Below, piece after piece: positions 2,506 to 63,400 of a DNA stretch of 64,000 nt. The DNA comes from Polytrichum commune (Eukaryota > Streptophyta > Polytrichopsida > Polytrichales > Polytrichaceae). Below the pieces are notes generated by a model that was given only the letters and a program-made list of their open reading frames with translations, was not told the DNA's origin and did no database searches. How positions within the stretch are numbered: the first letter of the stretch is position 1; every line of letters starts with the position of its first letter. Location of the stretch: positions 32,971,501-33,035,500 of the forward strand of contig OX485805.1 of NCBI GenBank assembly GCA_950295325.1, in the 5' to 3' direction. The translations under genes and the position numbers were made by a program.

Positions 2506-5500
2506 CTAATTGCTAGAGTCTGAAGAATTTGCTGGCAGTGATCCTACCCAATAAGTCTTGACTCCGACAAGAATCTTTTCTCTCACAAAGGGTCCATCCT
2601 CATGGTCTGCCATGCGAGACTCCCAGCGCATACCTTGTGAGATCATCATCACCTTGTTTAACACATCAACTTCATCTCTGATAAGAATTGCTCCCTCAGG
2701 CCGCAATATCCGGTCCATTTCTAGTAGAATATCCACAATATCACACCTGTTTCAACCAACAACAGCCCAATGTAAGCAGAATGACAACAATGTGATAGCC
2801 TACTGTATGACCAATGCATTGGCTAAACTGTCTCGAGTGCAAGTGCAAATTTTGGAACATCAGGACCAAATGAGTAACCACATATATCGAGTGACTAAGC
2901 AACGTCTGAACTATTAACTGAACAGTGATGTCCCTGATAGAACATAAATTCAATTTCTCAGTCAGCACACCTGTCCTGATACATGCTGAAAACACCATTT
3001 GCGTGGATGAGGTCATATGTTCGAGGGTATGTGGAAAATGCTTCACACCTGCAAGCAATGATAAATGAATAGATCAAGAGTTTGACACACTCAATAAGTT
3101 CGAGCAAGCTACTGAAAAATCGGAAAAATCAAAAAATAATCAAAAAATAATATTAGGACAGAAGCCATTAGGTGCCCACTTCCTTCGAAGAACCATTAGA
3201 CTAGAGCATATGAAGGAATTATACCGTCCCCTCTCCTCTATTCTTTGGGGACAATGTGATCTAAAACAAACAGTTGCTTAAACAGACAGAAATATTGATC
3301 ACTTGATCATTACAGCAGATGCAATTAAACATTGCTTGCAATCAACTTGATTATGCTCAACATGTATCTAGCAAAGTACCATTTAATAATTTGGTTCTAA
3401 TTTTTCAATGCTGTATCCTTTTCGAGTCAAATCTCATATCACAAGTCCGGCTCACAGACTTACCAATTTTGATATGTACCAATGAGCCCACGTTCGTAAA
3501 TGACTCCAAGAGTGTTATCCTTGGCATCAGAAGGCATGACATTCATGACCCAAACCGGGTCTTTGACCAATGCAGCCGCAAAGCCTCCCATTCCAGCGTT
3601 CATGTCCATGATGTTCCGGTATCTCCCAGTGGCCAGCGGGGTAATCAGATGGGTCTTGTAGTATCTAACACGTTTAGCCCATAGTTCAGTATCCTGCTTG
3701 AAACTTTCAGCCGATATCCCGGGAATTGATCCACTTGCAATACGAGGAGGCACAGCTGTTAGCCTTGCAGGCCACTTGGCCAGTGCTCCACCAGCAACTT
3801 CCTTCCTGTCCTTAACTCCCGGAAGAGGGGTTATACATGTTTCCATCTTCCGATACCTGCGTCAAAGGGGAATGCCTCAGACACCCAACAACTAGATTCA
3901 TACTTTTGACACACTTACTATTACATCGAGTATTACCCCATGAACAATTGTACTCACAGGGGCAACCCCCGTTTGCGCACATTTTAGTTTACCTACCAAT
4001 GATGATTTGAGAACTCAAACCGAAATAGGCGCAACGAACCACAACAATAGTAGAATTACCAGGCAGAATCAGGATTCTCTGCTTTGCTGCAGATGTGGGG
4101 ACGAAGCTCGGGATCCTTCTTACGGCTCTGCTCGCATTCAGCGTGGTTCCATGGCTTCTGCCAAATGGCAAGATTATCTTTCTCTGCAAATTTCTTCCAA
4201 CAAAGGTGGCGAGCTGCCTCTTCAATTCCATCTTGTTCTTTTTTCAGATCCTCCTGAGTCCTTTCCCAACCCCTGTAATGGGTTCTCCAGTTGATGGGTG
4301 GGCCAGAAAGGATCCAGAATCCACCAGGCCTCAACACACGGTCCACCTCGGTCAAGTAAATACTATCTGCATTTTACGGGAAAATGATGATCCTCTTAAA
4401 TCGCTGAAAGATGTGCGAAATGAAAAGAAAGTTGACATGTGGGTGACCAACATACAATGCCGTGAATCAGCTGAAAGAGTGCTACTGGAAATTGCAAAGC
4501 AAACAAGTCAAATAAACAGACGGTGGAAACCAGCGACCAAGGAGGTTACCATATCCTGCCCAAGGAATGAGACACCGAGAGCAATGTGCCATGTCGAAAG
4601 ACCGAGCTGGATATGGCATGCGGTTTTCGGCCATGATCCCAAGGATGGCAGGGACACCTCTCTCCAAAGCAAATTGCACCTGGGATACATGTGTATCTCG
4701 TGGTGCGAAGGACATAGCCAATACATCTCTCTTCAGCAAATATGCACCCCAACTGGCCACCTGCGAATCACACACGCGATATTATTGACATATCTTCTCC
4801 TGAAAAATATGGACTACACGGCATCATCACTGGCACATTAGGTCCAATTTCAACAGAGAACGAGTTAGGTATTTAGCGCCGAGTTGTGCTCATTATGTCA
4901 ATTGCTGGATATCTCTCGATCACATCCTATTCCCCTTGAATTCCTCCCAGCAGTCACTAACCTGAAACTGACCACAAATCAATGAACAGAAACCAGTAAA
5001 CCTTCACGGATGATGTTTGTCCACTTACCCCGCAACCGGTATCAATCGCTGTTCGGATTGTACCATCGCTAAGAGGGATCAGTTCAGCAATGTCATCAAT
5101 GTACTTGTCAGCACCACCAGCAGAAAATGTTCCTCCACCTGGGAAATGGAGCTGCTCACCTTGAAACTGAACCCATTTCTGGATTGCTTTTTCAACTGTA
5201 AGCTCCTTGTGGGGAGTATTTGCGAACCATGCGTAGTCCCGGCTCTTAGGCCATGGGAAGGGGTTCTTGTAACCGGGAGGTGCAGGAATCAAGCATCGAA
5301 GAAGCTCATCCTTCTCGGGACAATGCCGTTCTCGGTAAATAAGTTTTTCGCGAGGGAACTTCAATGAGCGGTCATTGTCTTCGCAAGGAGTATACTCACT
5401 ATACTTCATATCACAAGGCTCAAACTGAGTGATGTTCGACCCAACCTCAGCGTTCGATTGACTGTGGTGGGCACTGAAGTCGAGCGAGCCGCTTGTTTTG

Positions 5501-6772
5501 CAAGGCCGAAGAAGCTTCTGGTCTTGAAATGATGCAGCTTTAAGATCAACTTCATTGCTGTTCTGCCACGAGCCCAATATGTAGAAGAAGCAGCAGAGGC
5601 CTGCCACACTGACCATCCATGTGATTTTCTTTCGCTTCGCTACATCAGCATTATGAATTTTCGGAGATCCCGGTCCCAATACACCTGTACAGACATAGCG
5701 AGTGACGATCAGGAGTCAAGAAAATTATATTGTACACCATTTCTTCAGACGAACCCAGCTTGATATTCACGAGGCATAGAGCTAGGAATGTATTCAAGCT
5801 AAGTTTCGCCATAAAAAGGGACCTACCGGTCTGTCTATATGGCTTCACCCATCAAGCATTAAAACTGAGTGTGCCTTTCCAAGCATTGAAACAGGATGGC
5901 ATTTTTTGAGCATATGATTTCCACGGTGTATGTTGTAACTTCCTAGATAGAACCAGTTTGCAAGTTCTTCGCAATAATGGATGGTCTGTTCAATCTACTG
6001 TGGCAATTTCTCCAAAGGACTTTCAGTTCAGTTTGTATTTACTGTGAAGTTCGAACAATCACTGACTGCGTTTGTGCAAGAAATCTTTATTATCTCCTTC
6101 TGAGAGCTCTACAAGGACATACAAGTCCGGTTGCACCTCAGGCTAGTACGTGTCGCTAAATACTCTTGCAATGCTTATTCAACTGGAGCATAAGCAATCT
6201 GCGATGTACGTGCATAACCATTTCCACAGCTGTCGAGTAATGTTGAATATTCCAAGTCATGCCCAACTAGACAAACATATGAAAGAGTCTCCATGAGGCT
6301 TACATGCAGGATATTGAACGCCTCCGTGATGGTTTGAGTTTCTAGGTCTTAACGTCTCTTTCCTCTATTACTCCCTGAACTCTGAACCCTTCAGAATATT
6401 TCACGCATATATTCAAACCTACTGCCATCGCTAAGCTTTGCCAAATAGAGTCGAGGAACCTGGTCTATTTAACAAATGAAAGACCCAGAAACGGATCCTC
6501 CGTTATCAACGAGGGAGCACCAAGGATATTAACGCAGACATCACCATCCTAAGCGGAAAAGAAAACCAAAGAGGAAATGCTGTTTGAATGTATCCTACTC
6601 CGAGAATACCAAGTTAAGCCTACACATGTACCATGATGGATCATCGTGGCATTGTGTATGCGCTGGAGCAAGGTTAACATTGATATCATGAAGAATTATG
6701 TGAGACAAAAACTAATGTGCCCAGGCAGGAACTACGGTTAAGATGAATACCGTTAAACAGCTTGGTTGCCAT
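2506..6772 (-). CDS. Probable SAM-dependent methyltransferase, PMT family (QUA2-like, DUF248)
   Basis: Seven coding exons, complement of 2506-2746, 2971-3048, 3464-3856, 4060-4366, 4550-4760, 5029-5684 and 6751-6772. They join in frame to 635 residues, normal for this family (about 600-650). All introns are GT-AG. Order: short cytosolic tail, one membrane anchor (about residues 28-47, rich in V/G/L/F), EYTPCED, YRERHCP, the SAM-binding DTGCGV (222-227) followed by [36 protein letters not shown] and a second half with [20 protein letters not shown] and MDRILRPEG. It is closest in memory to Arabidopsis PMT16/17/18. Known relatives are Golgi type II proteins linked to pectin (homogalacturonan) methylation; that role is inferred here. 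The first exon has only 22 coding bases (reads MATKLFNG) and is the least certain part. The next exon cannot supply a start itself: no in-frame ATG lies between its upstream stop and the conserved region. Confidence 0.93.
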
Positions 6773-8150
6773 GTCGAAGATGTAGCTACAATATTGGTAT
6801 TAAGTGTCGCACCATCCACCAGTAGACTTGTCCTTCCTGCTTAGTCGATGCAAGCTGTAAAGGTGTATGTCACCGACCTCGGCCTCGCATGCTCCCTCCA
6901 ACACGCTTATAGGAAGATTAAGCACTCTGGAAATAGATGATGAACCTTTCCTGCGCCGGATCCTGACTGCTGTGAAACAAAGTTTTAAGAGGAACAAAGT
7001 GCAGAGCGTACTATGTGCTTCTTGATAACCCACATGTCAGGCTACACGTAGCGGAGGAACGGATGCTCTACCTCCCTGCCTTCCTTAAACTGCGCCGCTC
7101 GGTACATCAATAGCAGCAAGGGCAAGGAGCACCAGAAACGGCACCTTCAGAACACCTTAAAGACTCCTAACAACACAAACACATACTACGACACATTCAT
7201 CTCCAGCGAGCGCACGCCTACTCGATCTCCTGCCTTCTCCCTCACCGCCAACAAAACATTGGACAACCAACCAGAGCACCAACTTCCCACCCCAAGATTT
7301 ACCTGAGTAACCAAACCTTCAACTCAAAACTGCACTAAAATATTCCCCCCAACACCAGAACCAAAACACGAAAGAATCTCAAAGTACTCACCACCCAGAC
7401 CTCCAACACCGGAGACTAGATCGAAACAACTCACCGCCCAAGATTGCTAACATCAGCAATCCATAGCGACTCCCATCCTTATACTACATGTCCACACGAA
7501 CGCCACACCATGAGATAATAATCCCACAAGAGCCTAACCCTCGCCCTCCAACACCAGCCCGAAATGAGGGAAAAAAACTAAAATCTAAAAACTAAAACCG
7601 GCACCACCACCACCACCAAAGACAGCTTGCTGTGATGATGAAACCAATCCCCCAATTACCCACACAACCTGCTGCGGAACCATCAATGCAGCAGTACAGT
7701 AAGCTTCCTACCACGAACAGAAACCGCAAAGCATGAGCATGGAATGGCGACAGAAGAAGGTCCCAGAAGAGATGTGCGAGACAGACGTAAGAGAAGGCTT
7801 AAATGAAAGCAACATTAGGGGGGGGAGGGGAGGGGAGCGCGATGGGAGAGAGATGCAATCGAGGCATGAGTGAGGGAGGGTGACAACCAGTGACAGCAAT
7901 TGAGCAACAGCCTGCCCCAGCAGACAGCCAGCCGCTGCAACCACAACCAGGACGGGACGGCCTGATTTTTACTCTGGTTAATTTCCGTTTCTTACTTCCC
8001 TTTTTCACCCTCGCCCGGCGTGTGGCCCAGCCACGGGAGTTACCTCGGGTAGAACGGGCTGGGCGGGCTGACGCCAGATCTACTGGATTTTCCCCGTGTG
8101 GGCCCCACCTCTAACCTTCAGTCACTTGGGTGGGCTCAGCTCTAGGTGAT
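6773..8150 (-). promoter_or_regulatory. Probable 5' UTR and promoter region of the PMT gene
   Basis: This stretch is richer in G+C than the surroundings and free of recognised repeats. The proposed start ATG at 6772 has G at -3 and G at +4, a good plant context. A purine-rich run of G with a few A (7818-7840) lies in the upstream half. The transcription start cannot be placed from sequence alone; no clear TATA box was chosen. Confidence 0.4.
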
Positions 8151-9375
8151 GGGGATCTTGAGTTCCATTTGCCTTGTATTTTCCCAAGGCAGGTCTTATG
8201 TGGGCCTTATTATGTGCTCGCCCTTTTCAATGGGACACCTGTACCTATTTGGGTACTTATTTGGGTGGTATGTGGGAAGGCTTCTTGTTAATCATGGATG
8301 CCACACTTACATGTGTTACAATCACATTGGACTCAATTGGTAGATAAGGCCCCTGCCCAAGGGCAATCATATGGCGAGCCGAGAGCAGCCCGAGGGGTCT
8401 TATCGTGCGTAGCCATTCTAGATTGTGAAGCGTTTACATCTTATAATGTGCCTATGTATTGCATTGCAAACATTAGCGGAGGGCTTTATGAAAGAGAGAA
8501 AACCAACATTGGGTAATCCGACATAAATTCGAGCCCGTTGGTTTTATCCTACTCAAGAATCTCCTTGGTGCATGGTGGGGGTTGCTTGCTTACCTTGTGG
8601 TAGATGGCCTCTTGTTTGCACTTTCATCCTCATGTAGTTTGTGCTTCTCTACTTCTGATTTAGAAATTGGAAATGACAATTTTTTCGTTCACAATTGTTA
8701 ACCATGTCAGACTAAAAATGTGTGGACCTTGCAAGGTCAATCTTCTAATTTTCCTAATCCAACAGTCTACGTCGTATGTGGAGTCAAGAGTGCCCACAAA
8801 AGGGACATGTACTTTAGTTGACTTTGGATTCAAAATATAGGACTAGGGTGGGTTGATGGGAACTTGACCAGTCCAAAACGCTCATTTAATGGACCACCCT
8901 TGCTTGAAGTTTGGGTTCTCAAACTTCAAGGGAGTATTAAGTTCAAGACCAATAAGATTTGACATGAAAGTGGTGACACATTAGAGTTACTATCACACTT
9001 CATTGTTACAATTAAGTAATATAACAAATAATGCATACAAGACATGAGAATTATGAACTTTCAAACTTTGTACATTACAAAAGTTTCACAACTTATCAAA
9101 AATGATGCGATTAGTTGTATGCTCAAACCACTTAGTCATAAAAGGAGGTGTAGGAGAGAGACCAAAAATCCTTTCTCCTCCCTTGAACTCATTTCTTCTT
9201 TGCCAAAGGGCCAAAGGCACTACTTTTACTTACTTTATCCAATATAGTATAAGTCCTCTATTCACAATTATACTTTAGTTCTAACTAACAATTTAGTATG
9301 TTTGGAAAAACTACTTGTTTAAAATTAAAAAGGATGTGCACTTGTGGAGAAATTTAAAAAATAAAAATAAACATG

Positions 9376-9415
<40 letters not shown>

Positions 9416-9633
9416 CTTTGAGTGTTTGTATTCCATGTTCATCGACCACCATAATTATATTTTTATGGAATCTAGTGTACAACATATTGGTAGTTGGAAT
9501 TGCCCAAAATTCATGCATAAATCCAAATATACTTAAATCCTAGTTTTCTTCGATGAATCTTCTATGTTTGGTCCTTCTAGAATTATTTTTCACCTTGGCG
9601 CTCAATCACATTATTCTAATTTGAATCATGGAT
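8151..9633. other. Intergenic, repeat-family C body
   Basis: No gene. Text at about 9040-9290 recurs in diverged form at 23100-23320 and partly at 56370-56490, leading into a hairpin array at each place. A separate segment (9300-9545) recurs at 13264-13505 and partly at 55069-55110 and 55850-55985. A perfect inverted repeat CTTGAAGTTTG / CAAACTTCAAG with a 6-base loop lies near 8900-8930. A (AAC)n microsatellite covers 9376-9416. Confidence 0.5.
9376..9416. repeat. (AAC)n microsatellite
   Basis: About thirteen uninterrupted AAC/ACA triplets inside the family C-related segment. A shorter, broken version sits at the matching place near 13358-13375. Confidence 0.9.
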
Positions 9634-9860
9634 AGCCATTGGGAGTTGTCTAACTCCAATTTGTATCATCTAATTGAAGTCGTCTAACTCCAACACAAAC
9701 ATCTTCCATTGGGAGTTGTCTAAGTCAAAGTTGGAGTTGTCTAATTCCAACATAAAAATTCTCCATTGGGAGTTGTCAAACCCTAGTGCATGATTCGCTC
9801 ATGGGTTGTCTAACCCTTGTGTTCAATTTCTTCCTCTTGAGTTGTTTGACTCCAATTGCC
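9634..9860. repeat. Hairpin array C1 (short inverted repeats around a GTCT loop)
   Basis: Several small inverted repeats in a row, each with the loop GTCT or close to it. Examples are GTTGGAGTT-GTCT-AATTCCAAC at about 9730 (one G:T position) and GGGTT-GTCT-AACCC at 9803-9816, plus ATTGGGAGTT-GTCT-AACTCCAAT near 9638. Spacers are AT-rich and unalike. The same organisation is seen at 23341-23668 and 56559-57043. Confidence 0.75.
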
Positions 9861-11286
9861 GTATGCTCACATACCGAGTACAACACGTTATGGTTGGTCA
9901 TCATTATTCATGAAGTAATCAACTGATCTCTTAAATCGAGGTACCACTTAAATACATCACATTTATCCATAAAAGATGAGAGCAACCATCCAATGTTTGA
10001 CTTTTGCATCTTGTCTTTGTCGTGTGAGTCGGAAACTCTCCAGTTCCAACAAATACTGTAGATATATTGACATGTTGGATCCACCAAACTCACGGCTCCC
10101 CATAAGTTCTCAACCTTCATATAAATGTTCCCAAGAAAAACCAATTAGACTCAAGACCAAATTCTGGTGAGGCTAAGAACATAAGACAACACCTTTTTTA
10201 CCATGGATAATTTGTTCATAGGTCCTAACTTATATATAGAAGCAAACTACGAGAAGAATTAACTTGCCTATGAGACTCGGGGTTTTTTTCCCTTGTTGTG
10301 ACAACTATAATAGCAACATTTCATTTCTTCATGATTTGAGTTAGGAAGCATCCACTTTGAGGCCATCAATTGGCAAGGAAATTTACAAGCTTTTTCCTAA
10401 CCTTCTCCAATTTTAGATGGACCCGGTTTCTTGTGATGGGTGAGACAATGGACTCATATGAGGCCTACAAAATGATGACCCAAGGTAGAGGGTGTTAATT
10501 TCATACCCTCCCAAAAACGCATCCTATGCAAGACTTGTAATCTCGTAATTGGAGCACACCTTAAATGATTTAAATGTCTCAAATACATACCATAAACAAA
10601 TTTGGGATAAATAAAATGAAATTAATTATGAAAAATGCGGGATGTAAACTTGCTTAGAATATAATCTTGGGTCCAAAAAATTTCTCTCAACCAATAAGAT
10701 CACTTGATTTTGGAATTTCTTTCGGCTTAGACTGTCCAAGTGTATACCCACCACCATATGTTGGAGTTTGTAATCACTTATAGATCACAAACTCCACTAT
10801 AGTGAATCACAATTTGATTTGGTTAGAATCACACTATATCCACGTTCCACTTGCAATAAGTGCTTGCATTGGCACATGGTACCACATAAGAATCATGAAA
10901 CACAATGGTTCAGCTTGGCACATTAATTTTCCACTCACACCAAAATTGGCCCCATTGGGCAAGTACCTAGTATAGTGCAACTTCGGACGTAATTTCCTTA
11001 GTGATAAGCAATAACATCTAAACATTGATTTTCAAGTGTATACAAAGGTAAAAGAAATCATACTAGGTAGTTTATTTGTTTTATTATGCCCACTATAACA
11101 TGAAACACCTCCTTGCTCTATTTGTAGAATACAATCAAGTATGGACTTGTGTTGTCTTAGTCCATTGCATTCATGCACGTGAATTTTGTCTTGGGTCATC
11201 CATGTACCCATCCATTCAACATTTTGTTGTTGACATTCAATTGTTTTTGGGATGGTGATTGCATGATTATCATACAACCTTTCTAA
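9861..11286. other. Intergenic, nothing recognised
   Basis: AT-rich sequence with short open frames only. The first 100 bases after the hairpin array resemble the segments following arrays C2 and C3 (TGCTCACAT..CTAAGTACA.CA). No coding or RNA gene seen. Confidence 0.5.
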
Positions 11287-19431: not shown

Positions 19432-19795
19432 GTGAGGCCAAACCCCCCACCCTTAAGCGTCCGTAGTCCGAGTAGTGGGTTTGGGCTCACATTCCTCCGC
19501 GGTATTGGATTTGGACTTGGATGAGTCCATAGTGCAAGGTTCACCCTTCAAGTGGTCTTGGATTTAACTTTGGTCTTTGCTTCCTTTGTTTTGCCATCGC
19601 GAGAGTGCTCCACATTCTCCATTAAGTTGTGCACGTGGTTTATTTTTAAAGAGAGGATGCAAGTGTTAAAAAAAACACTATTCTCTATAGTCAATCTCAA
19701 ATACATTTACTTGTGAAAGCCACACATAACACTAACTAGCATAATGTAACTAACTACTTGTCTATGAGCTAATTAGGTAGGCTATCTACTAAGCT

Positions 19796-19992
19796 CCTTC
19801 ATGAACCCATCTCTTTACTTTCTAATTACATAAACCTAGCTCCTTCATAAACCCAGCTCCTTCATAAACCCAGCTTCTTAGCTTCTAACTAAACAAACCC
19901 AGCTCCTTCATAAACCCAGCTCCTTAGCTTCTAACTAAACAAACCCAGCTCCTTCATAAACCCAGCTCCTTCATGAACCCACAACTTTGTAG
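19796..19992. repeat. Tandem repeat (CCCAGCTCCTTCATAAA units)
   Basis: The word AACCCAGCTCCTTCATAAAC or a one-base variant is repeated about eight times. Some copies are separated by AGCTTCTAACTAAACAA, giving a higher-order unit of about 57 bases. No coding potential seen. Confidence 0.85.
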
Positions 19993-22900: not shown

Positions 22901-23340
22901 CTCAAATATAGATATGTAAGATATGAAGGAAGAGGAGGCATATGATGGGCAACTATCACATTCAATTCTATTGGGAAGAGGGGGGGGGGGTGTAGCCCAA
23001 AGACGAAAGAAAACCACAAAGAAAGAAAAGTGGACCACATCAAAGTGAATTTTCACGTTTGTCTCTTACACAAGATTAATACAAGCACAAATGCATATGA
23101 GACACCAATATTGAGAACTTTTAAACTTTGTACATTACAAAAGCTTTAGAACTTAATCACGATATTGTGATTACTTGAACCATTCAACCATAGGAGAAAC
23201 AAAAGATCCTCTCTCCTCCACCGAGCTCCCTTTCATGCCAAAAGATTACTTTTACTTTCTATTTCTCATATAGTCTTTTATTCATAGCTCTACCTTTGGT
23301 TCTACTATAAATCTTCTATCTTTTGGCTCAATCACAATGC
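19993..23340. other. Intergenic, two unassigned open stretches
   Basis: Minus-strand open frames at 21147-21476 (starts MHGKCSTLWAYDISMLDRYV) and 21497-21751 are free of stops over 80-110 codons, but I recognise no domain in them. They may be worn retroelement coding sequence, since they lie 2 kb from a gypsy remnant. From about 23100 the text is a diverged copy of 9040-9290 and leads into array C2. A poly-G run lies at 22980-22990. Confidence 0.4.
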
Positions 23341-23668
23341 ATTAGTTGGAATTATCTAATTCCAACTTGATGCATTCGTATATTCTTCTAGTTGGAATTG
23401 TCCAATTCCAACTTGATCCAATCATCCATTCTTCTAATTTCAACTTGATGATTTATTCATCCAATCTTCTAGTTGGAACTATCTTATTCTAACTATAATT
23501 ATTCATTGAGCGTTGTCTAGCTCCAATAAATAACATTCATTTGCTAGGAGTTGTATAAGATCTTCCGAAGGGAGGGTCTTTAATCATGTGTTGTCTAACT
23601 CCCGTGCACAATTTCTTTATGGGTTGTCTAACCCAACTCTTTCTTTGGAGTTTTCTGACTCCAAACAC
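23341..23668. repeat. Hairpin array C2 (short inverted repeats around GTCT/ATCT loops)
   Basis: AGTTGGAATT-ATCT-AATTCCAACT (23344-23367) and AGTTGGAATT-GTCC-AATTCCAACT (23390-23413) are perfect 10-bp stems. GGGTT-GTCT-AACCC lies at 23621-23634 and TTTGGAGT-x6-ACTCCAAA near 23645. The arms differ between hairpins but pair within each. The flanks match those of C1 and C3, so the three arrays are copies of one repeat family. Confidence 0.8.
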
Positions 23669-26527
23669 CATCTGGATAACATGCTAAGTACAACAAAATA
23701 TGGGTTGTCTTTCGTTCTTGCATAATCCAACATTAGATTTTATTTTTTAATGCATGCATATCACAATAATCCATGTGTTTTCGCGAGAGCGGCCAATTCT
23801 CCTACGGATTGTCTATAATGACATGCTCATGTAGGACATGTATGAATTGGGTCTCACTTCGTTGGGACTCTCTCGAATGCATACCACTTTTCATCCAATA
23901 GAAATATATCACAAACCCACCCTAAGTAATTTCTTTAGTCGTAAAGCAATAAGGTGGACAACTATTATTTGGTTACTTTTCTTATTGGGACATTTGCATT
24001 TGAGTGTAGATGGCTAGGTGTGCCTCCAAGAACAAATACCAAAAACTCATGTGTTTAAATAAGATTAGACTATGGGCACAAAATATGATAACCACTATGA
24101 AGTCAATAATCAACATAATTGAGAAACCTGTGTGATTATTTAATGAGCACAAAAATCTTTGCTTTGATAATGAATGAGATATGCATATGAGCTCCAAAAA
24201 TTATGCGGGAAGTGACTACGGCCTCGATTTGGATTTTCTATGAGCATGTTATTTGGTTCTACTTACAATTGTCCATAATAGAACCTTTTCATGTTGACAA
24301 CAAAGTATGCCCCAACATTTGGCTACAACTACAAAGGTCCAACTTTTTTTTGGGGGGGGGGGCACAAATGGAAATTTCAATTACAGAGAGAACCCAAAAT
24401 ACAACCAACATGACCGAAACAACGCAAACCGAGTGGAAATCAAGAAACAATGTTCATATGAGGCCTATCCTTTTAAATAACGACTAAGTTGTGCAAAGGT
24501 CCAGCTTGAGAGCCTTGCAATGAGCTTCCAAGCCGCAACCTTGAGGCCATATTGCGGGGCTTCGTTAGATGTTGTATAATGGAGTCAACCCTAGCAACCA
24601 AGCATTCTAGCATCCCGCAACCTAATCCTATCCCTCATCTACCTATCATATGTTGTCCCATTGGCTGCCCCTAGTCCTTGTCTTCGTAAGGAGCTTTCCA
24701 TTAAGACATAAGACACCCCTTGAACATCTAGTGACCATTTCTTTGATGTCGTCAAAATGTTGGAACTACTACTTACACCATTTTAGCGGAGCACTTCATG
24801 TGTCGGAGCTAGTGGCTAGATCAAGACTCCTTGTTTGAATGTGTGAGAGATGATCGATATGGAGAGTTCAAAGGTGAAGCCAATTATCGACATCCACCTT
24901 TCATATATGTTGGTTGCATAGTTCGGGAAGTTTTTGAAGCCTTAGTGGCTAATTGCCGGTAGTTGCTACGAAGGGTCGGATTTTCCCCAATTTACATCGG
25001 CAACAGCCGGTCTTTTGTAAAATCAATCGGCCGATTGCCTATATTTTCATTGGCCAATATCCGATTAAATGGAATTCATATCAGCACTAATTGTTTAAAA
25101 TATGTATGAAAAGTTATTAGAAATCATTTCTTAGTACAAAATCTTGAATAAGTGAAAAGAAAGGCATGTTCAAAACTTTAAATTTGAAGAGTTAATATCC
25201 TTGGTAGGAATTGAACCTAGCAATGCCTTCACCGCTTGAAGGCCAAGGGTCCCCTAATTCTTCATAGAAGCAATTGGATTTGGTCATGGAAAGGTTGCAT
25301 AATTCAAAAAGTGTAAGGTTTAGGGTACTTCCTCAAGTGCATCATCAGATGCCCCAGACAAATAGCGCTCTAGATGCTTCCGGCTAAAATCTAGTAACTC
25401 ACAAGAAGAATCGGCTACATTTCTGGGACATGTTCTGGTCCATCGGCTAATTGCCGGAGGATTGAAATTGAAGTCGGATTGCCATCCGATGGTTGGAAAT
25501 TTGGACCGGCCATGAGGGGAAATCCATCGGCTAATAATGAACTAGCCGTCGGTTTTCCCCGAACATAGGTTGGTTGTTTGTGAAGACCTTCACATGAATA
25601 AGTTGATAACATAGATAATCATAATACTCAACACCAATATGTGTTCTTACATATATGAGGAGTTAAAGCCAATTTGGGACTATGACATCCTTAAATCCTT
25701 GTACGTGAGTGGTCAATTCTATTAAATCAACCCCAAGGCCTTTACATGATGGAGTCAAGGCCATTCCCTGAAACTCATATATTTATTGACGTGGAATTAT
25801 TATAATTTTAATGCATTAAAGACAAAATTTGACATGGCCGAAGGGAAGAGGAATTGGGTTGGATGAAAATGTAAACCCAATTTGCTTCCTTGGGACCATG
25901 TCAGAACTCCCTCCTTGGCTAGAGCCAATATTTCGTGTAAATTGGCTTCAAATAAGGTAGGGAAACGGAAGACGGTGGAAATAAGTTGATTCGGGCTAGA
26001 AAGAGTGGCTTGGGATTTGTGCCAAAAAATCAAATTGAAAGATGGAGTAGAGGAAATGTTGAGGAATGCAAGTTGTTTCGTAATTTCATTCCATACACAC
26101 AATCAATTACAGTTTCCTGAAGAGGCAAGTAAGTCGAACCCCCTACTTGTACAACAAACACTCCCTACTCGAGGATCAAAATATCCTACTCTGCCTACTC
26201 ATGCATAGAGAACGGTTAAACTGAAGGGCACCCAAAAAAGATCTCAAGTGATGTGAAACATGACCTATCGATCTATCATTGCATCCGACCTATCATCACA
26301 TAATCCGTTATGATCCACCAATTTTACAATGAGACGTTGGGAGCCCTACTCCCAGTGTAGGGCAACGGTAGTGAGCCCTTGCAGTTTTCGGGCTTCCTAC
26401 ATTATCAAAGGTCTAGATCCCTCGTGTTGTGAAGCGGCTGTTACAGTGTATATGAAATAGAAGAGGACGTATGGGTGAGCCTCCTGATGGAGGGAGGGAC
26501 GAATCCAGTAGTATCCCCAGGAACTAC
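23669..26527. other. Intergenic, nothing recognised
   Basis: No gene. A poly-G run lies at 24351-24362. CGGCTAATTGCCGG-like words are frequent between 24945 and 25560, but I cannot link them to a known element. Open stretches at 24203-24487 and 25800-26102 have no recognisable protein. Confidence 0.45.
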
Positions 26528-42789: not shown

Positions 42790-45700
42790 TCAATTCCTAC
42801 TCCTTGAGCGCTCATAGAAGAACAAGCTGGCATTGGCCAGGAGCACTTCAGACTCCTCCACACGAGTTACATATGAATCAGACACCTTGAACCACACAGC
42901 TTTGGCATTTTCCTTCACCGGCGGCATTTCCTCCATTTTCTTGTTCTTCACAGACTCCGTAACCAACAAAGCCTCCTCTGCCAGAACCGTCCCATCACTT
43001 CCAAGTTCGATTGACTGGTCTACTACTACTGGGACATTGTTAGCAGCACCAGCCAAGTCTGCTTCCGCAACTTGATCTTTTGTACCTATTTCTTTTTCAA
43101 ACTCTCTAGACATAGAACTAGGACTCTCAACTTCCAGTGTTTGACTGGCAGCCTGTGATAACATCACCTTCCGATATACAGTGTAATGACCACTTTGTGG
43201 GCCCCCATGGTGCACCACAACTGACAGAAGCTCATACAACAACTTCCTTGACTTCAGACTAGTTGACATTCTCGACTGTTCAATATCCCAACTTGGAGTT
43301 GTTGTGCTATGGGGATCTGCAAGTGCACCTGAAGGAAACCCAAGAACCCATAATTAAGTAGATACAAAGTTACTTCATTAAATGCTCTACAGCAACCTTT
43401 GAAATGATGATAAATGCAAACCAACTGCAAGTTTGTGAATGACAAAATATAGATCTGACATATTGCTGTCAAGATCACAGGTCAGAAGTGAGGACAGGAC
43501 AAGATTCATTTTTCCCCTATGGAAAAATCAATCTTGCACGATCAATGAAACATGAGCCACATACTATCGAGGAACTCATATTCAAGATGACAGAACAAAT
43601 TTCAGCACATGCATACCTAGGTCAGTGCGACCAGCTGAAGTGAAACTTGTGCTTTCTTTCTGTGGTGTGGAACCGCCACCTAATTGAAACTGTCAAAAGC
43701 ATGGCAATCTGTGAACATTTAAGGTGACTTAGTAATTTCAGTGCAGGCTAAACAATCATGACTTGGGCTTGATCGAATATAGTTCAACCTCAATCTTCTT
43801 GTCTGTCCATGAGATCTTATGAGATGGCAGTTTCATTAAGAACAATAAGAGATCTTTATAAAGAGCCAAATACCTGTGGGTCAATCATTTCGGTGTCTCC
43901 GGGGATCCCAATTTCTTCAATTCGATCTGTTGAAACCTTTGATATCACATCAGCTGTCAATGGTACAGCTATCAATTCTTCATGTACCAGACCTTTGCTA
44001 GGAACACTTCCAGGGTCCTCTACTTTTGCTTCTGTATCTTTAGCAGTTTCTACAGTTACGGTTTCGACATCATCTATCCCTTGCTTGCCCAAGTCTGAGC
44101 CTCCCTTCATATCCAGATGTGGGGAAAAAAGTGAAGCTGGATAACCAGAGCCTTGAAACTTCCTGATGTTGGACAATACTGCCCCACATTGCCGTAACAT
44201 TTGGGTTGAGGGGTCTCTCTGAACTTCGGATCTTGTATGGGAAGTTCCCACTTTGCCCTCTTGAGCAGCAACTGTATATGGATAGAGGTCCAGAACCATG
44301 GGAAACGTCACATGCCCCTGTTTTCTCACATGATTAAAGTGACCAATTAAGATTTCTTACCCTGAACTATGAAAGATTTGACAAAACATGGAAAATTCAA
44401 GGCACCAGATTACATCTTCAATATGCAAAGGGCAAAGCGGCAAGGACAACTCATGACCCATGATCCATGGCAGGGTTGTCTGACAGAAATATATGCCACA
44501 CTACTTGGTTTTTCAGGCTCTTAAAAGCAAAGACTTTACCATCAGCTTCCTGAGCTCTCCAACCTCATTCATAGCTGCACGTTGCACTTGGAGACATAGT
44601 ACCTGCAGAGAATGAAGATCAAAAAATATAAGGCCTTTCAGTCCTTTGAAAAGAGAACAGTCTGGTTCTCCAGAAGTAAAAAGAGATCACAAACGTGAAA
44701 GTGCACCTCCACATCAAAAAACCTCACAAACAGGGAAGCAGAATCAAACATTAAGATTGACCTACCTCAGGAGAGGAGCCAATTCGGAGACGTTTGGAAG
44801 CATTGGTGAAGATGGACTTCCACATTCCACCTTGTTCCAGGATCAAATTCTCACATGAACAATCATCATCACAGCTGCACTTCTCCAAGACTCTGATCTT
44901 ACCCTGCAGAAAATGATCGTGCTCACTCAGCATAGCGGATGGGAAAGAGCGTAAAAAAACATCTATTTCCACCACATACTTTGCCTGCATGATATCCTCC
45001 AAGTCCGCTGCAATGACCTTTCCTGTCACAAATCTTCAATGCTTGGACTCTCAGCTCCTCATTGCAAATGCCAGTGAGGTCCATGCTTATCAGATCTTCT
45101 GAAAATAATTTCATGCAACTGATTTCTTGCTCCAGAGCAGTGATTCTAATGGTGTACACATGCAATGACCAACTTAAATGACCAACCTCAATAGCAACCG
45201 TAAGAGATTGGTCTCGACCAGTGGTCATTTTGCTGATGTCCAATTGAGTGTGTAACACTTGGCTTGCTTCCAGGTGTGCACAATGGCTGCATTTAACGTT
45301 AGCTACCCATTCAGGGGCTGTGAATTGGTCCAAGCAATCCTCCAGAGTGCAATTGTCGATCTGCCAAGTGTTTGCATTACTATACATTGTAATTCTTTTG
45401 GAAATAAAAAGGTGCACTCTGTAGCCACAGGATCTAACAAATGCATGAGACCAAAAAATGGCCATGTTTAGTCTAATATAGGCTGTATCAGCCTTGGGAT
45501 GATATCCTGACATCCAGAAATCACCTCCTCTGCTCAAATACTTTATTTCATGTATGTGGCAAGCAAGAGTTCCAGCGTTTCTTCAGTGCAATGGATACGA
45601 GAGTGAGTAAAGATATGCAGCTCTAACAAACAATCAGATTCGAGCTAATGTTCATAGTAAAAAAAATAATGATGGTGAAAGACAATGCTTCATGGTCTCC

Positions 45701-51802: not shown

Positions 51803-52846
51803 TTAGCGATTTCGAGGGGTAGAGGTGGTCGTGGTCGAAGCCAAGCCCTCTATTTCTTTGACTAGAAGCTCTTTCTCTTCTTCAAACTGCTCATCTTCCT
51901 TGTCAAGGTGGAAATCATCCAAGAACCTGAGGAGCTTCTCGCGATTCTTGGCTAGTATGTTGACAATTTGCGGAGGCTTTTGCGGGTTGGCCACAAACAC
52001 CTTGAACACATGGAACGCAGAAGACTGAATGTTCTTGCTGGGATCAGTGATCAACGTCATCATCACCCGTAGGTTCCGCACATCCGAAATGTAGAGCATC
52101 ATGATCGCCGAGTTCGACCTCTCCAACAAGATGTCACTCAGTAGTTTCAATGACTGTCTCCGGGTGACATAATTCGCCGATCTCAGCAGCTTATCAAAAT
52201 TGGCAAAAAAGGGTGCATACCGAGCGGTCAAATACGTCACCACAATTGCATTGTGCCGAGTGAGGAGTTCCTTGAATGTCGCGAAAGCATCTGACGCGAT
52301 GTCGAAGTTTGGAATCTCCACAAACTTGAAAAACATCTCAAAGCTCACGGACTCCAGCATGTACTTGGATAAAGTCCCATACCTGGCACACTCCCGCAAC
52401 ATACTCCCACAGTTGAGGGCTATCTCCTTATTCTCATAGCACAGAACAAGGAAATCCAGAAGCTCTGTATGGCTCTCGAGATACTCGAGGCCACATTGAG
52501 TGGATCCCACTTTCTGCCGCAACACAGCACCCCAGATGTGCACACAATCTTTGCGTGCCTCCCAGCCCAGGATGGGTAACCTTTGCACAATAAGCTCCAA
52601 CACATCAATCTTGCATGCTTCTTGCGTCACCTCCACCACCGTCTCCACGTTAGGCTCCGTGTCACTGTCCCCCAACAGCAGATCCTTCATGGCCTTGATA
52701 CTCTTGTCCACCTCCTCCAGCGATTTCTCCAGCAGCCGCACATCCGCCACTGTCTTGGAGTCCAGCGCCGACAGCGACTCTTTCACCTGCCGCACTAGCT
52801 CCGCCGGTGTCTTGGGCTTCAATTGCTTGAAGAACGAGAACGACAT
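51803..52846 (-). CDS. MO25: MO25/CAB39-like scaffold protein
   Basis: A single open exon of 347 residues, the normal length of the family (about 340). It starts MSFSFFKQLKPKTPAELVRQ, the conserved MO25 N-terminus; the ATG at 52846 is preferred over an in-frame TTG nine bases upstream. Mo25 helical-repeat words run through it: LGWEARKD (about 94-100), CGSMLREC (146-153), NFDIASDAFATFKELL (180-195), NYVTRRQSLKLLSDILL (225-241), FHVFKVFVANP and FEEEKELLVKEIEGL near the end. MO25 is an armadillo-like cytoplasmic adaptor; in animals it activates LKB1-STRAD and Ste20-type kinases, in plants and fungi it works with Ste20-like/NDR pathway kinases in cell division and polarity. The plant role here is inferred. 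The last dozen residues (T/S-rich, then NR) are variable. No frameshifts; a working gene is likely. Confidence 0.95.
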   Translation of the reverse strand: MSFSFFKQLKPKTPAELVRQVKESLSALDSKTVADVRLLEKSLEEVDKSIKAMKDLLLGDSDTEPNVETVVEVTQEACKIDVLELIVQRLPILGWEARKDCVHIWGAVLRQKVGSTQCGLEYLESHTELLDFLVLCYENKEIALNCGSMLRECARYGTLSKYMLESVSFEMFFKFVEIPNFDIASDAFATFKELLTRHNAIVVTYLTARYAPFFANFDKLLRSANYVTRRQSLKLLSDILLERSNSAIMMLYISDVRNLRVMMTLITDPSKNIQSSAFHVFKVFVANPQKPPQIVNILAKNREKLLRFLDDFHLDKEDEQFEEEKELLVKEIEGLASTTTTSTPRNR

Positions 52847-53750
52847 TGCGACCAAGCCGGCAGAAGGGAAGAGAAGAGCGACTGAGAGTGAGAGAATGGA
52901 GTCAAGAACTTCACCTAATGGCTCAATCCTCTCGGATCCGATGAGAGTGGACTTAAAGAGGACCAGATATCACACCAGCATATAGAAACCCCAGAGAGAG
53001 AGAGAGAGAGAGAGAGAAGGTTTTGGAGAATTCTTGAGTTATCTCGCTTCCACGAAGCTCCAAACGTGGATCACAACACTTGACTTTCGAAGACCACAGT
53101 CTGCGCGAAAAGACAAAAGAGCGATGCGAGGATTACATCATCGGGGCACAGGACAAGTAGAGGTGCAGTGTACAGAGTGACAGGGGCGGATCAATCCCAA
53201 TCCTGATGGAAAGCGAGAAAAATGGCGAAATAGAGAAAAACCTGAAGAAAGCAGGGTAGGGGAATCTAGAGACCAAATCGAAAGCCCAATCCACGCAGGA
53301 AGCAACCCTCCAATGAATCCGCGATGAAGAAGCAACTGTCCGAAGCTGCTGGCCGACACCCAAAACGTGCAAAACGACCAGGACAGACACGGAGGTGGCC
53401 TGCTGCTGCAAACATCTGCCACCCTGAGCGTAATCCGCTATGCTATTTGTGAAGGGCCCGAGAGACGTAGGGCGCAGAGAATCTGCAGGGGGCCTGACGA
53501 CGCCACATGAGATCCGTGGCGAGGTGAGAAGTTTACAAGCCAAAATCGGGGAGGCAGAGCGGCGGGCGGGCGGACGGGCGGGGGAAGACGAAGACGAAGA
53601 CGAAGACGAGAGCGGCCATGTCTCATCCTTCCTTCTTTCATCCATTCCATTCCATCCACCTTCTACGTTCATCCCTGGAGCCCTTCCTAGTAAAAGTGAA
53701 CAACAAAACATCCACACGCACTTATCAACATGAGGGTGTGTGAGTTAGAC
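52847..53750 (-). promoter_or_regulatory. 5' UTR and promoter region of the MO25-like gene
   Basis: GC-richer than the neighbourhood. It contains a (GA)n run at 52993-53017 and a GAAGAC repeat (53583-53610), which are CT-rich on the gene's strand, as is common in plant 5' leaders. An open minus-strand stretch at 53133-53717 is low-complexity (serine, arginine, proline) and is taken as leader, not protein. Start site not fixed. Confidence 0.45.
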
Positions 53751-55850: not shown

Positions 55851-56558
55851 ACAAAAACAACAAATGACAAAAAAAAATCACCAACCACCATATTTGTGTA
55901 GTTTTGTGATCTATATTGTATTTCAAATTGATGGTTGAAATTGTGCAAAATTCATAAATAAACCAAATATACTAAAATTCTAGTTATGTGAATCCTTAGT
56001 GTTAGTTTGAAATTTTAATAATGTTGAAGTTTGAGGAGGAATTCTTTTGTAAATGATGGAAATTATTCTTCGATTATATGTTTCAATATTGTGGAATCAT
56101 GTCTACATGTGGAATTTCACCAACAGGTTGGCCCATACAACTCAAGCAAATTATAATTGTGATATGTTCTTACTTAAACACAAGTTCTTCATATATTATC
56201 ATGAGGAATGATTATGACTAACTTTGGGTCATAATTCTAAGCTTATGGATTGTGACGATCGCTCAAGATTGTTGTTACATTCCTCTTTTACACAAGAATA
56301 ATTCAAGCATGAATACACATGAGATACTAATTGTGATTGCTATGAGCTCCAACCACCTGACCAATGGAGAGACCAAAGATGATCCTCTCTCCTCCCCTGA
56401 GCTCTTTCTTATACCCAAGGGTACTCCTAGTCTTATCCATTTTCATTCATAATATCTAAGAAATATTTTAGAAGACTCAAGTCTTACTAAATATAGACAA
56501 CATCTTCCTTATCTATGTACATGGATCATTTCTAATTATTTGGCTCAGTCATAATCCT
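55851..56558. other. Intergenic, family C body
   Basis: No gene. About 56370-56490 parallels 9155-9290 and 23190-23320 (GATCCTCTCTCCTCC..GAGCTC and following), leading into array C3. Confidence 0.5.
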
Positions 56559-57043
56559 CTAGTTGGAGCTATCTAATTCCAACTTGATTCATTCATCCAT
56601 TCTTTTAGTTGGAACTTTCTAATTCCAACTAGATTTGTTCATTCATTCTTCTAGTTGGAATTGTCTAATTCCAACTAGATTCATTCATTCATTCTTCTAG
56701 TTGGAATTGTCTAATTCCAACTAGATTTATTTGTTGAGAGTTGCTAACTCCAATGAATAGCATCCATCCATTGGGAGTTGTCTTATTATGTATCATATCT
56801 TCTAGTTGGAGTTGTCTAACTCCAACACAAAGATCTTCTAGATGGGGGGGGGGGGGGGTGGGGGGTGGTGTGTGTGTCTAATTCGTAGTTGCAGTTGTCT
56901 AACTCCGATGCAAAGATCTTTGACTGGGAACTGTCTAATTCTTGTGCACAATTCCTTCACGAGTTGTGTAGCCCTTTGTGCATCATTCTCTCTTGGGTTG
57001 TCTGACCTAATTCTTACTTTGGAGTTGTTTGACTCCAAACACC
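56559..57043. repeat. Hairpin array C3 (short inverted repeats around a GTCT loop)
   Basis: Best array of the three. Two perfect 12-bp stems, CTAGTTGGAATT-GTCT-AATTCCAACTAG, lie 46 bases apart at 56651-56678 and 56697-56724. GTTGGAGTT-GTCT-AACTCCAAC is at 56805-56826. Weaker ones occur at 56559, 56606, 56893 and 57016. Spacers between the first units are near-identical (ATTCATTCATTCATTCTTC). A poly-G tract lies at 56842-56868. Confidence 0.85.
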
Positions 57044-57544
57044 ATATGCTCACATGCTAAGTACATCAAAATATGATTAGTCATTCTTTCTTGTATAATC
57101 CAATATTACATCTTTAAATCCGGGTATATCACAATTGTTAGAGAGTCTAAGCTCTTCATTAACAAGTTTTCAAACATTCCTTGACTTGTTATGAATACAT
57201 AACTTAGTTGTTTGATAGCATTCACTCCTTGACATCTCACTTTGAACATTATCATTTTATGTGACTTGCTTAAACTATGGAGAGTTTGAGGGATTGGTCA
57301 AAAATTGAATAGTTGAAGCTTTGCATGAAAGCTTGTTGGAAGCAAGTATCGAACTCCCAACAACTGTGAGTTTGAGTTGTAAGGTAAGGTAGTGTAGATG
57401 GGACCTCGAGGTGGCTGCACCTATGGGCCACCCTTACCCACTGCAACCTCCTTGATTCATGGGTATTCATCAAAACTTAGGGTTTCTTTTTGAGGTTTCA
57501 CAACCATCAGTTTATAGCCAGTCATAGGTATGGAGCATAACGGC
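57044..57544. other. Intergenic, nothing recognised
   Basis: AT-rich. The first 80 bases match the tails following arrays C1 and C2. No gene. Confidence 0.45.
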
Positions 57545-60489: not shown

Positions 60490-63400
60490 TCACAGAGTTG
60501 GAATGAGCATTCGACCAAATCCCAGAAATTCTGCAGCAAACTCATCATCATTTTTTGCTAACATAGATTTGAGATCACAACTAATTTGTCGGCGTTCTAT
60601 TACTCTAGCCCTAGGAATAATCCTTTTCTCCAATGAGTAGCTGAAATACCGTGGGTATTCCACAACCTCGTAGACTTGCCTGCCCATTGAGTTCACAAGA
60701 AATTGGAGTTTGGGTTTCAAAACAGGTTCAACATTGTAGCCTAGTAAAGGTGGGAACTTGTATACCATCCTTGCAATGTTGTTCTTGGATATGTTCCACG
60801 TCCGCAGGTACTCCATCCTGTCCACAAACAAAGAAACCCATGTTCACTGTAATGCATGAAAATATGGCAAGAGAAGACTTTCTAGTGCAAGACAAAACGG
60901 CAATCATCATCCATGTAATTTTCCGACTTGGTGTAAAATTTACAGATCTCCCACTTCCATTGGCGGAAGAAACATGCAGAATATGAGTCAACATTTGGGT
61001 GTAGAACAAACCTCCAAAGGTCTACAAAGCTTTGAATAGGTACAGGGGAGAAAATTTGAGCCAACTCGGCCACTATCCTTACTTCTTTATTGTCAATCAG
61101 CTACTCATTGAATTGCTTTGGTTATTACTTGTACTTTTATGATATTTTTCTTCTGATATATAGTTCACTGAGTTCCATTTTATTTCAACAATTTAGGGAA
61201 TGAACTGGGTCATCTGTAACTGCCTAGTTGCTGGATCTCTCTGTTCATTGGCTTCAATTCATAATTATTGACACCTTGCTCACAAGTTTCCAGGGTTTCT
61301 GTAGGGACTTTTGATGCACGTGCAGATTGAGCACACACTTGACTTCACTATGGGTTTCATATAAAAAATAAACTATACCTAGATATCTTAATTTCCCATG
61401 TATCGGATCTACTTCTGTCTCACATAGGCATCAAACTCTGACGAGCTATACAACTTTCTGGAAATTGTGCACTAATCCGTTTTCTAACACTATTGGAGAT
61501 GACCACAACAACTGAGAACCTGCATTGAAAAGAGAGTTAATATACCAATAGAACAAAGGGTGGCTTAAACCCAAGGCCTTAACTTGGATCCCATGGGAAC
61601 TCTGAGGTTGAACTGGCCACAGCTGAAAAGTGCTTGGATGTTTCACCTTCACAACACTTGATTCCTGGTGCTTATGATTTATGGTCCACCCAATCAGAGT
61701 GGGAGTATCTAGGTAAGCCAGATATTTTTAGGCAACCATGTGGCAGCCTATGGGCTTGCCCTTGGGGGAGATTAGGTGCCAGCTGGCTTGTCCGTGCATG
61801 TTTGAAAGGAGGCAAGTAGTCTTTAAGGGTTTTCTATTCTTGCCATTTTCGTATAAGGATTACATAAAGGATTAGAATCACTTTAAAGATGAAGCAACAC
61901 CAAAATTCACACTGGTGGGCCAACATTGGAGTTATTTCTTTCTCCAATAGAAACAATAACTAACCTGGGCTGCAGAGAGTCCTTCACACTCATTGAGAGC
62001 ATCTCTGGAAACATGCGCACAACCCTCTGCATGAGTTCGTCCTTGATTCCCAGGTCCTCCAAGAACTGCACCTTTGTCTCCAAGGTTTCAGAAACATCAG
62101 ATGCAAACACCTCGGGTGACCTCTTCAACATACCACCCATGTCTTTTGGGTCCACACCCAGCTTTGACAGAAAGCCCACCACCTGTTTCATTGAGCAAGT
62201 AAGAAGGCTGTAAAGATAAATTTCAGTCTGCAGGATTCTGATGGCTGATGAGAATGGCAACACCTAGGTAAAGAGAAGAGAAGAGAAGAAGCAAGGCAGA
62301 ACTCATACCTCGTTAAACTCCTCATGTGTGCGAATCAGTAATTGGGGACTGCAACCTATTACCCGACCCAACCTCTTGCTTTTCACCCCGAGCTCGTTCA
62401 TGCGATCAACCATTGGCTGCATGGTCCTGGTAGTCGAGCATCCCACCAATTGGGGACATCTGGTGATTGATAAATCGACCTCTTTTTGTGGAACCTTACA
62501 CCAACATTCAAGAGAAGTCAAACTCTTGCAAAGCCCAGAATTGGGTATTATACCTCTCAGTGAAATGACTTCTCCAGCACTCTATAACCAAGGAACATAT
62601 AATGGCCAAGTAATCAATAAATTGACCAAGTAATCAATAAAATGGCTATGATGGGACACCTTAATTGAGAAGAGGAAGTCCACAAGATCTTTGACATTAT
62701 TTTGTGCACTGCGGCTGAGAATCCATGGGTATCTAGAGACCATTTTCCCCAAATTTCTTGCGGGGACACCAACCTGCAGCAAGTGCTAGAATATAAATAA
62801 TAGAGAAGATAGAAAGCCTTCAACCAGGATGATAATAGGTTCACTAGAGTTTCAGTTCAAAACTCCTTAAGTTTACCTTGGTTAAAGTTCTTGCTCGCTT
62901 CTTCAGATCTTGATTAATATCACACAAAAGGACTGGTGGATACAACAAGACCACTTGGCCAACAGCATCTGCCGACACCCCCATACTCTCCAGGAAATCA
63001 AGAACAGGTCTAAGTTCGGTGTCCAAGCCTTGAAGAAAAATTTTCGGAAAGTTTTCAATAAGACGAGCAACTGCAAATGGTGTCGAGTGAAGCAAAGCAA
63101 CACCCCCTCGCTGAGCTTCTATCTGCAAGAGGCTTGAAGAGAGACAGCACCCCAGAATAAGTGGAATCCCCAGTTGCCACATGTGACCACAAACTAGGAA
63201 CCTAAGACCGGGAATCAACTTCAAACACAAATCTTGAATGGTAATATCTAAGCCAAAAGGCAGGCATCTATTTCCATGAAGTCCCTTACTAATTAGAACC
63301 CAGAAATCCTCAACTGCAGATAGCAAGTGTATTCCAACAAGAAACCTTGTACATCAGACAATCCACAAATTACAATAAATAGAGACAGGGGTGATGCAGA

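Follow-up and report, generated by a model that had tools for sequence, protein, structure and literature searches.

Hairpin arrays in the window

The analysed stretch of Polytrichum commune DNA (64 kb, hereafter the window) contains a Mo25-like gene that forms a single long open frame, together with exons of a putative plant-type SAM-dependent methyltransferase, a ubiquitin C-terminal hydrolase and an mTERF protein (Table 1). Tandem units of the CATAAACCCAGCTCCTT type form a separate array at positions 19792-19981. Three other stretches contain arrays of short imperfect dyads around a four-base spacer. At up to three mismatches, the dyad TTGGARTTGTCTAAYTCCAA has 16 matches at 14 places in the window, two being scored on both strands, and all 16 fall within 9634-9860, 23341-23668 and 56559-57043. 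The small-hairpin arrays that the sequence-only reading had located in these three stretches are real, since only 0.04 matches are expected from shuffled sequences (100 shuffles; maximum 2).

Perfect stems of at least 9 bp with a four-base loop number three in 56559-57043, two in 23341-23668 and none in 9634-9860, with shuffle means of 0.000, 0.012 and 0.000, respectively (500 shuffles each). The signal is strongest in the first of these arrays and weakest in the last, which has two stems of at least 5 bp versus 0.26 in shuffles. Both stems previously described as perfect over 12 bp are indeed perfect, but they span 13 bp (Table 1). A poly-G tract with T interruptions was detected by TRF within the same array, at 56844-56870.

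The loop, earlier regarded as constantly GTCT or ATCT, is mainly GTCT, and ATCT occurs, but so do GTCC, TTCT, GTTT and others. Similarly, the three proposed arm types (GAATT with AATTC, GAGTT with AACTC, and GGGTT with AACCC) are all found, but many units have mismatched arms that had gone unmentioned, among them GGAGCT/AATTCC and GGAACT/AATTCC. The copies align also in sequence outside the hairpins, and the GGGTT unit and the final GAGTTGTTTGACTC unit recur at a similar place in several of them. The claim that the arrays are embedded in one dispersed family with similar flanks holds, and the carrier is a long terminal repeat (LTR).

Table 1. Genes, hairpin arrays and surrounding repeat copies in the window.
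Feature	Position	Strand	Basis
Hairpin array, reported copy; 10 units at up to 4 mismatches	56559..57043	-	strand by homology to L009-L012
Probable decayed group D LTR copy around the reported array	56324..57139	-	BLAST extents versus LTR copies; limits approximate
13-bp perfect stem, loop GTCT	56650..56679	.	sequence
13-bp perfect stem, loop GTCT	56696..56725	.	sequence
Second hairpin array; 8 units detected	23341..23668	-	sequence, unit detection
Probable decayed group D LTR copy around the second array	23049..23773	-	BLAST extents; limits approximate
Third and weakest array; 7 units detected; all stems shorter than 7 bp	9634..9860	-	sequence, unit detection
Probable decayed LTR copy around the third array	8989..9962	-	BLAST extents; limits approximate
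Mo25-like gene, one long open frame	51803-52969	-	PF08569, E 1.1e-128
Putative plant-type SAM-dependent methyltransferase, exons	3460-5715	-	PF03141
Ubiquitin C-terminal hydrolase, exons	42790-43353	-	PF00443
mTERF protein, exons	62844-63353	-	PF02536

Carrier element of the arrays

Exact dyads occur 384 times in the source genome (407.8 Mb in 64 contigs), and the reversed pattern is absent. Of the 20 regions first examined, four (L009-L012) carry two arrays each, located in direct repeats of 777-955 bp. Between the direct repeats are matches to gag, protease, reverse transcriptase (RT), RNase H, integrase and a chromodomain (Pfam; L012 and part of L009). The L012 open reading frame has RVT_1 at 673, RNase H at 926, an integrase zinc domain at 1113 and rve, below the cut-off, at 1187. 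RT and RNase H therefore precede integrase within one polyprotein, which is the Ty3-type order, and a C-terminal chromodomain (PF00385) scores above the cut-off in both L012 and L009. A primer site, which presumably fits initiator tRNA-Met, and a purine tract are present beside the direct LTRs. Target duplications of 5 bp flank three of the four elements, the LTR end of L011 and L012 having been placed where the duplication fits; in the remaining element, L009, the 3' LTR is truncated.

The two LTRs of an element are 100% identical in L011 and L012, 99.5% in L009 and 94.3% in L010, and the two identical pairs mean that the element moved recently. Among 40 full-length rows we found at least 12 same-strand LTR pairs, 11 of the 12 spaced 5,301-5,303 bp apart; these are lower bounds, as only the best 40 of 591 candidates were scored. 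The arrays are carried by a Ty3/gypsy chromodomain element with recent activity, and each of its young LTRs has 8-12 dyads. Intact arrays sit in LTRs, which rules out a stand-alone hairpin element, a MITE or a foldback element.

Several other features of the family were observed. The two LTRs of L010 (1039-1993 and 7477-8385) differ by one 46-bp dyad unit, a recent unit gain or loss. Oppositely oriented LTR copies lie within about 1 kb of each other at C2:10222544 (+) and 10223741 (-), and also in L057. In L018, a repeat with a spacing of about 235 bp occupies 5902-7541.

The copies in the window are probably old, decayed relatives (group D) of these young LTRs. Their identity to the L012 LTR is 73.5% over 9151-9264, 69.2% over 23179-23495 and 71.8% over 56352-56724, and the latter two aligned stretches take in part of the array. 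They are linked to the element by this LTR homology; no coding part was recognised beside them among the six window open reading frames tested, and the intact elements found do not include one of group D. The element sense is the minus strand of the window, the coding strand of the intact relatives being opposite to the GTCT strand. The LTR copy around the third array is interrupted at approximately 9305-9541, where it no longer matches other LTR copies, and the alignment hints that homology of the copy around the reported array extends further left than tabulated.

Position of the arrays within the LTR

In element sense, the array loops of the L012 LTR lie at 75-448, ahead of the TATA-like string ACTATATATAAA at 566, and those of the L010 LTR at 302-644, ahead of the TATA-like string ACTATATGTAAA at 762; these positions count AGAC loops, some units with other loops being uncounted. 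The exact TATA-like string is present in two of the four LTRs checked, and L009 and L011 have a weaker TATA match at about that place. This arrangement suggests that the array is in U3, probably upstream of the promoter. The CpG observed/expected ratio is 0.29-0.36 over the array-holding spans (wider than the array in three of four), so that CpG is depleted and there is no CpG island.

A query taken outside all dyads matched at least 41 places, with the best 40 of 547 candidates scored. Of these places, 39 coincide with those of the array-covering query, and the remaining two also carry arrays, of 10 and 12 units. Ten additional LTR regions, nine of them retrieved via the dyad-free query and L063 via the other query, which covers 9 of 11 dyads, all carry 10-12 units. 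Arrays are thus present in the examined LTR copies.

Apparent constraint on the dyads

We compared changes on internal branches, representing lineages that kept transposing, with changes on terminal branches, which are largely drift after insertion. Parsimony was used to count the changes, and the trees were themselves inferred from the alignments being analysed. Fifty regions were drawn from the first 100 listed of the 384 exact dyads, and each therefore holds an intact dyad; this sampling works against the constraint result described below, not for it. The alignment of groups A-C includes 25 copies (228 of 275 unit-copies kept after orthology masking of flanks), that of group D 23 copies (199 of 299 kept), and an enlarged set, formed by groups A-C plus the ten additional LTRs, 35 copies (308 of 385 kept). 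The A-C and enlarged sets overlap and are not independent tests; group D is separate. C_L015 and D_L034 were dropped for misaligned ends, L015 also from the enlarged set, and L016, L029, L046, L051, L054, the second array of L057 and the second LTRs of L011 and L012 stand outside the trees.

In the enlarged set, the dyad cores have 18 internal and 57 terminal changes versus 101 and 128 in the flanks (P=0.0026). Group D has 71 internal and 161 terminal changes in the cores versus 294 and 360 in the flanks (P=1.4e-4). The unmasked version compared with spacers agrees (P=0.012 and 0.0023). The four-base loop shows no significant constraint (P=0.42 and 0.11). The deficit of core changes on internal branches suggests that the dyads are under constraint while a lineage is moving and decay thereafter. 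In groups A-C, pairing drops with terminal branch length (rho -0.64, P=4e-4); group D has no such drop. Exchange between units, or faulty alignment, could account for part of the lower internal change.

Paired arm changes

The arms had been described as changing in pairs. In matching units of groups A-C and D, we counted 317 one-sided changes versus 10 pair-keeping double changes, and in the enlarged set 75 versus 5. For the most part, the paired differences that catch the eye distinguish unit types with a fixed array position across copies, and the types therefore pre-date the copies. An origin of the paired differences in ancestral variants, which the sequence-only reading had named as evidence against function, is mostly what we found, yet the dyad cores look constrained on internal branches. 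In young group A, four of five long units have C.A mismatches, so perfect pairing is not required.

Internal branches have 17 one-sided and one pair-keeping change in groups A-C, 65 and two in group D, and 20 and two in the enlarged set; terminal branches have 46 and four, 189 and three, and 55 and three, respectively. The two internal pair-keeping changes of the enlarged set (expected 0.10, P=0.0015) are G-C to A-T at pair 6 of the last unit and A-T to G-C at pair 9 of the first unit. This internal excess is suggestive only, being based on very few events and on a permutation that models the tree incompletely. Masked group D has two internal pair-keeping changes versus 0.43 expected, an excess short of significance (P=0.06), and three of its five internal double changes break pairing. 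Strong covariation seemed to be present in unmasked group D (5 versus 0.51 expected) but was rejected, because non-orthologous units had been lined up (columns 869 and 1399). Terminal pair-keeping changes are at chance in group D (3 versus 3.1 expected), not significantly above it in the enlarged set (expected 1.65, P=0.14), and above it in groups A-C alone (expected 1.6, P=0.017). Counts with slid partners are an unfair control for pair-keeping changes, since slid pairs mostly start unpaired; the slid-partner comparison on all two-sided changes gave little excess.

Proposed function and alternative explanations

We consider it fairly probable that the arrays form part of U3 in the LTRs of this Ty3/gypsy chromodomain element, where repeated regulatory dyads set LTR transcription and are selected in transposing lineages. 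Each dyad, with the core GGARTT, four bases and AAYTCC, in some cases with arms of up to 13 bp, and located before the TATA-like stretch, would be read by a symmetric (dimeric) host factor. The dyads would drive or tune transcription from the LTR, selection would hold them in lineages still transposing, and drift would follow insertion. We infer that the constraint serves transcription and that a protein rather than a folded strand reads the dyads.

The main rival is selection on the dyads as folded RNA at the transcript 3' end, serving stability, packaging or reverse transcription, or providing Dicer substrates for host silencing. We regard it as rather unlikely. The L012 array does fold strongly relative to shuffles (z of -7.2 and -8.5 for the two strands), as does the minus strand of 56559-57043 (-7.7), but a palindrome array folds strongly whatever its role. 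Compatible with folding are also the two clean internal pair-keeping changes described above and the concentration of small RNAs on LTR palindromes of maize Sireviruses, according to the accessible parts of two reports (PMC10760457, PMC5311732). Against it, one-sided changes dominate, active lineages retain mismatches, and wobbles of the transcribed strand are not preferred (P=0.36). Rfam has no match at gathering score anywhere in the window, and a known structured RNA was rejected on the same ground. The arrays could alternatively be neutral, an ancestral palindromic unit having been amplified by slippage or unequal exchange and hitchhiking without a role. Variation in unit number, including the one-unit difference between the L010 LTRs, tandem unit copies in L021, L044 and L060, and the derivation of most paired differences from unit types older than the copies all agree with such an origin. 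This explanation accounts for unit gain and loss but not for constraint: in two separate sets the cores changed less than the flanks on internal branches, and the units are scattered over hundreds of bases with varied spacers and a common core. We regard it, too, as rather unlikely.

The sequence-only reading had left the choice between selection on a folded form and a copying process that regenerates palindromes. Its first half is partly borne out, in that there are signs of selection on the dyads. Template switching at quasi-palindromes, regenerating them in place, appears very improbable. It could explain a few private paired changes (L027, L052) and the terminal excess in groups A-C alone. 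However, such a process should act after insertion too, yet terminal double changes are at or near chance in group D and the enlarged set. Moreover, the three terminal events of the enlarged set are all G-C/C-G to A-T/T-A, as independent deamination on both strands would produce, and one-sided changes persist in old copies. The results favour selection in transposing lineages over palindrome copying. The comparison of internal with terminal branches separates selection from mutational palindrome repair, and it provides a simple test of whether such arrays are selected.

Comparison with known systems

In the Ty1/copia elements Tnt1 and Tto1, repeated U3 sites with different motifs act as transcriptional activators. 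One study reportedly described tandem repeats derived from centromeric Ty3 retrotransposons. The sequence TTGGAATTGTCTAATTCCAA is absent from the open literature searched; among the matches listed there, with subscription papers mostly outside the scope, no Ty3 element is described with such an array.

The claim that no described plant element has this layout does not hold, since comparable palindromic motifs have been published for the LTRs of Sireviruses (Ty1/copia). According to the accessible part of that report, the 3' LTR has 3-14 motifs, 92% of them in the upper half, upstream of the TATA box; they mostly have a CGG-CCG core, are associated with CpG islands and were proposed to be regulatory (PMC2829016). 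The same portion indicates that the palindromic U3 array is present in the Sirevirus genus and lacking in the classic Ty1/copia elements compared. The Polytrichum element likewise has repeated LTR palindromes, with 8-12 dyads ahead of a TATA-like string in two of four LTRs. In contrast to Sireviruses as described there, it has the Ty3/gypsy pol order and a chromodomain rather than a Ty1/copia pol, and its dyads are AT-rich (GGARTT-4-AAYTCC), not CGG-CCG, and outside any CpG island. It resembles Sireviruses in anatomy but is not a member.

The small-RNA hotspots of maize Sireviruses, as presented in the accessible text, are similar in being strongly structured palindrome clusters, by prediction, within the regulatory part of the LTR, but they belong to copia elements (PMC10760457, PMC5311732). 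In the available part of the maize work, structure peaks occur in copia LTRs and generally not in Ty3 elements (PMC10760457). Retand, like the Polytrichum element, belongs to Ty3/gypsy and has short tandem repeats, specific to the family, in non-coding sequence; unlike it, Retand is a non-chromovirus with its repeats placed between pol and the 3' LTR, outside U3, and the accessible portion of the source carries no description of them as palindromic (PMC11963269).

A palindromic U3 array is now placed in a Ty3 chromodomain lineage, with a motif unrelated to that of Sireviruses. We tentatively speculate, as a possibility that is still doubtful, that Ty3 chromodomain elements and Sireviruses independently built the same device, a palindrome array just upstream of the LTR promoter that selection keeps palindromic, with compensatory changes of the arms, only in transposing lineages. 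If this is true, arrays of this kind would form a general battleground on which LTR activation meets host silencing by small RNAs.
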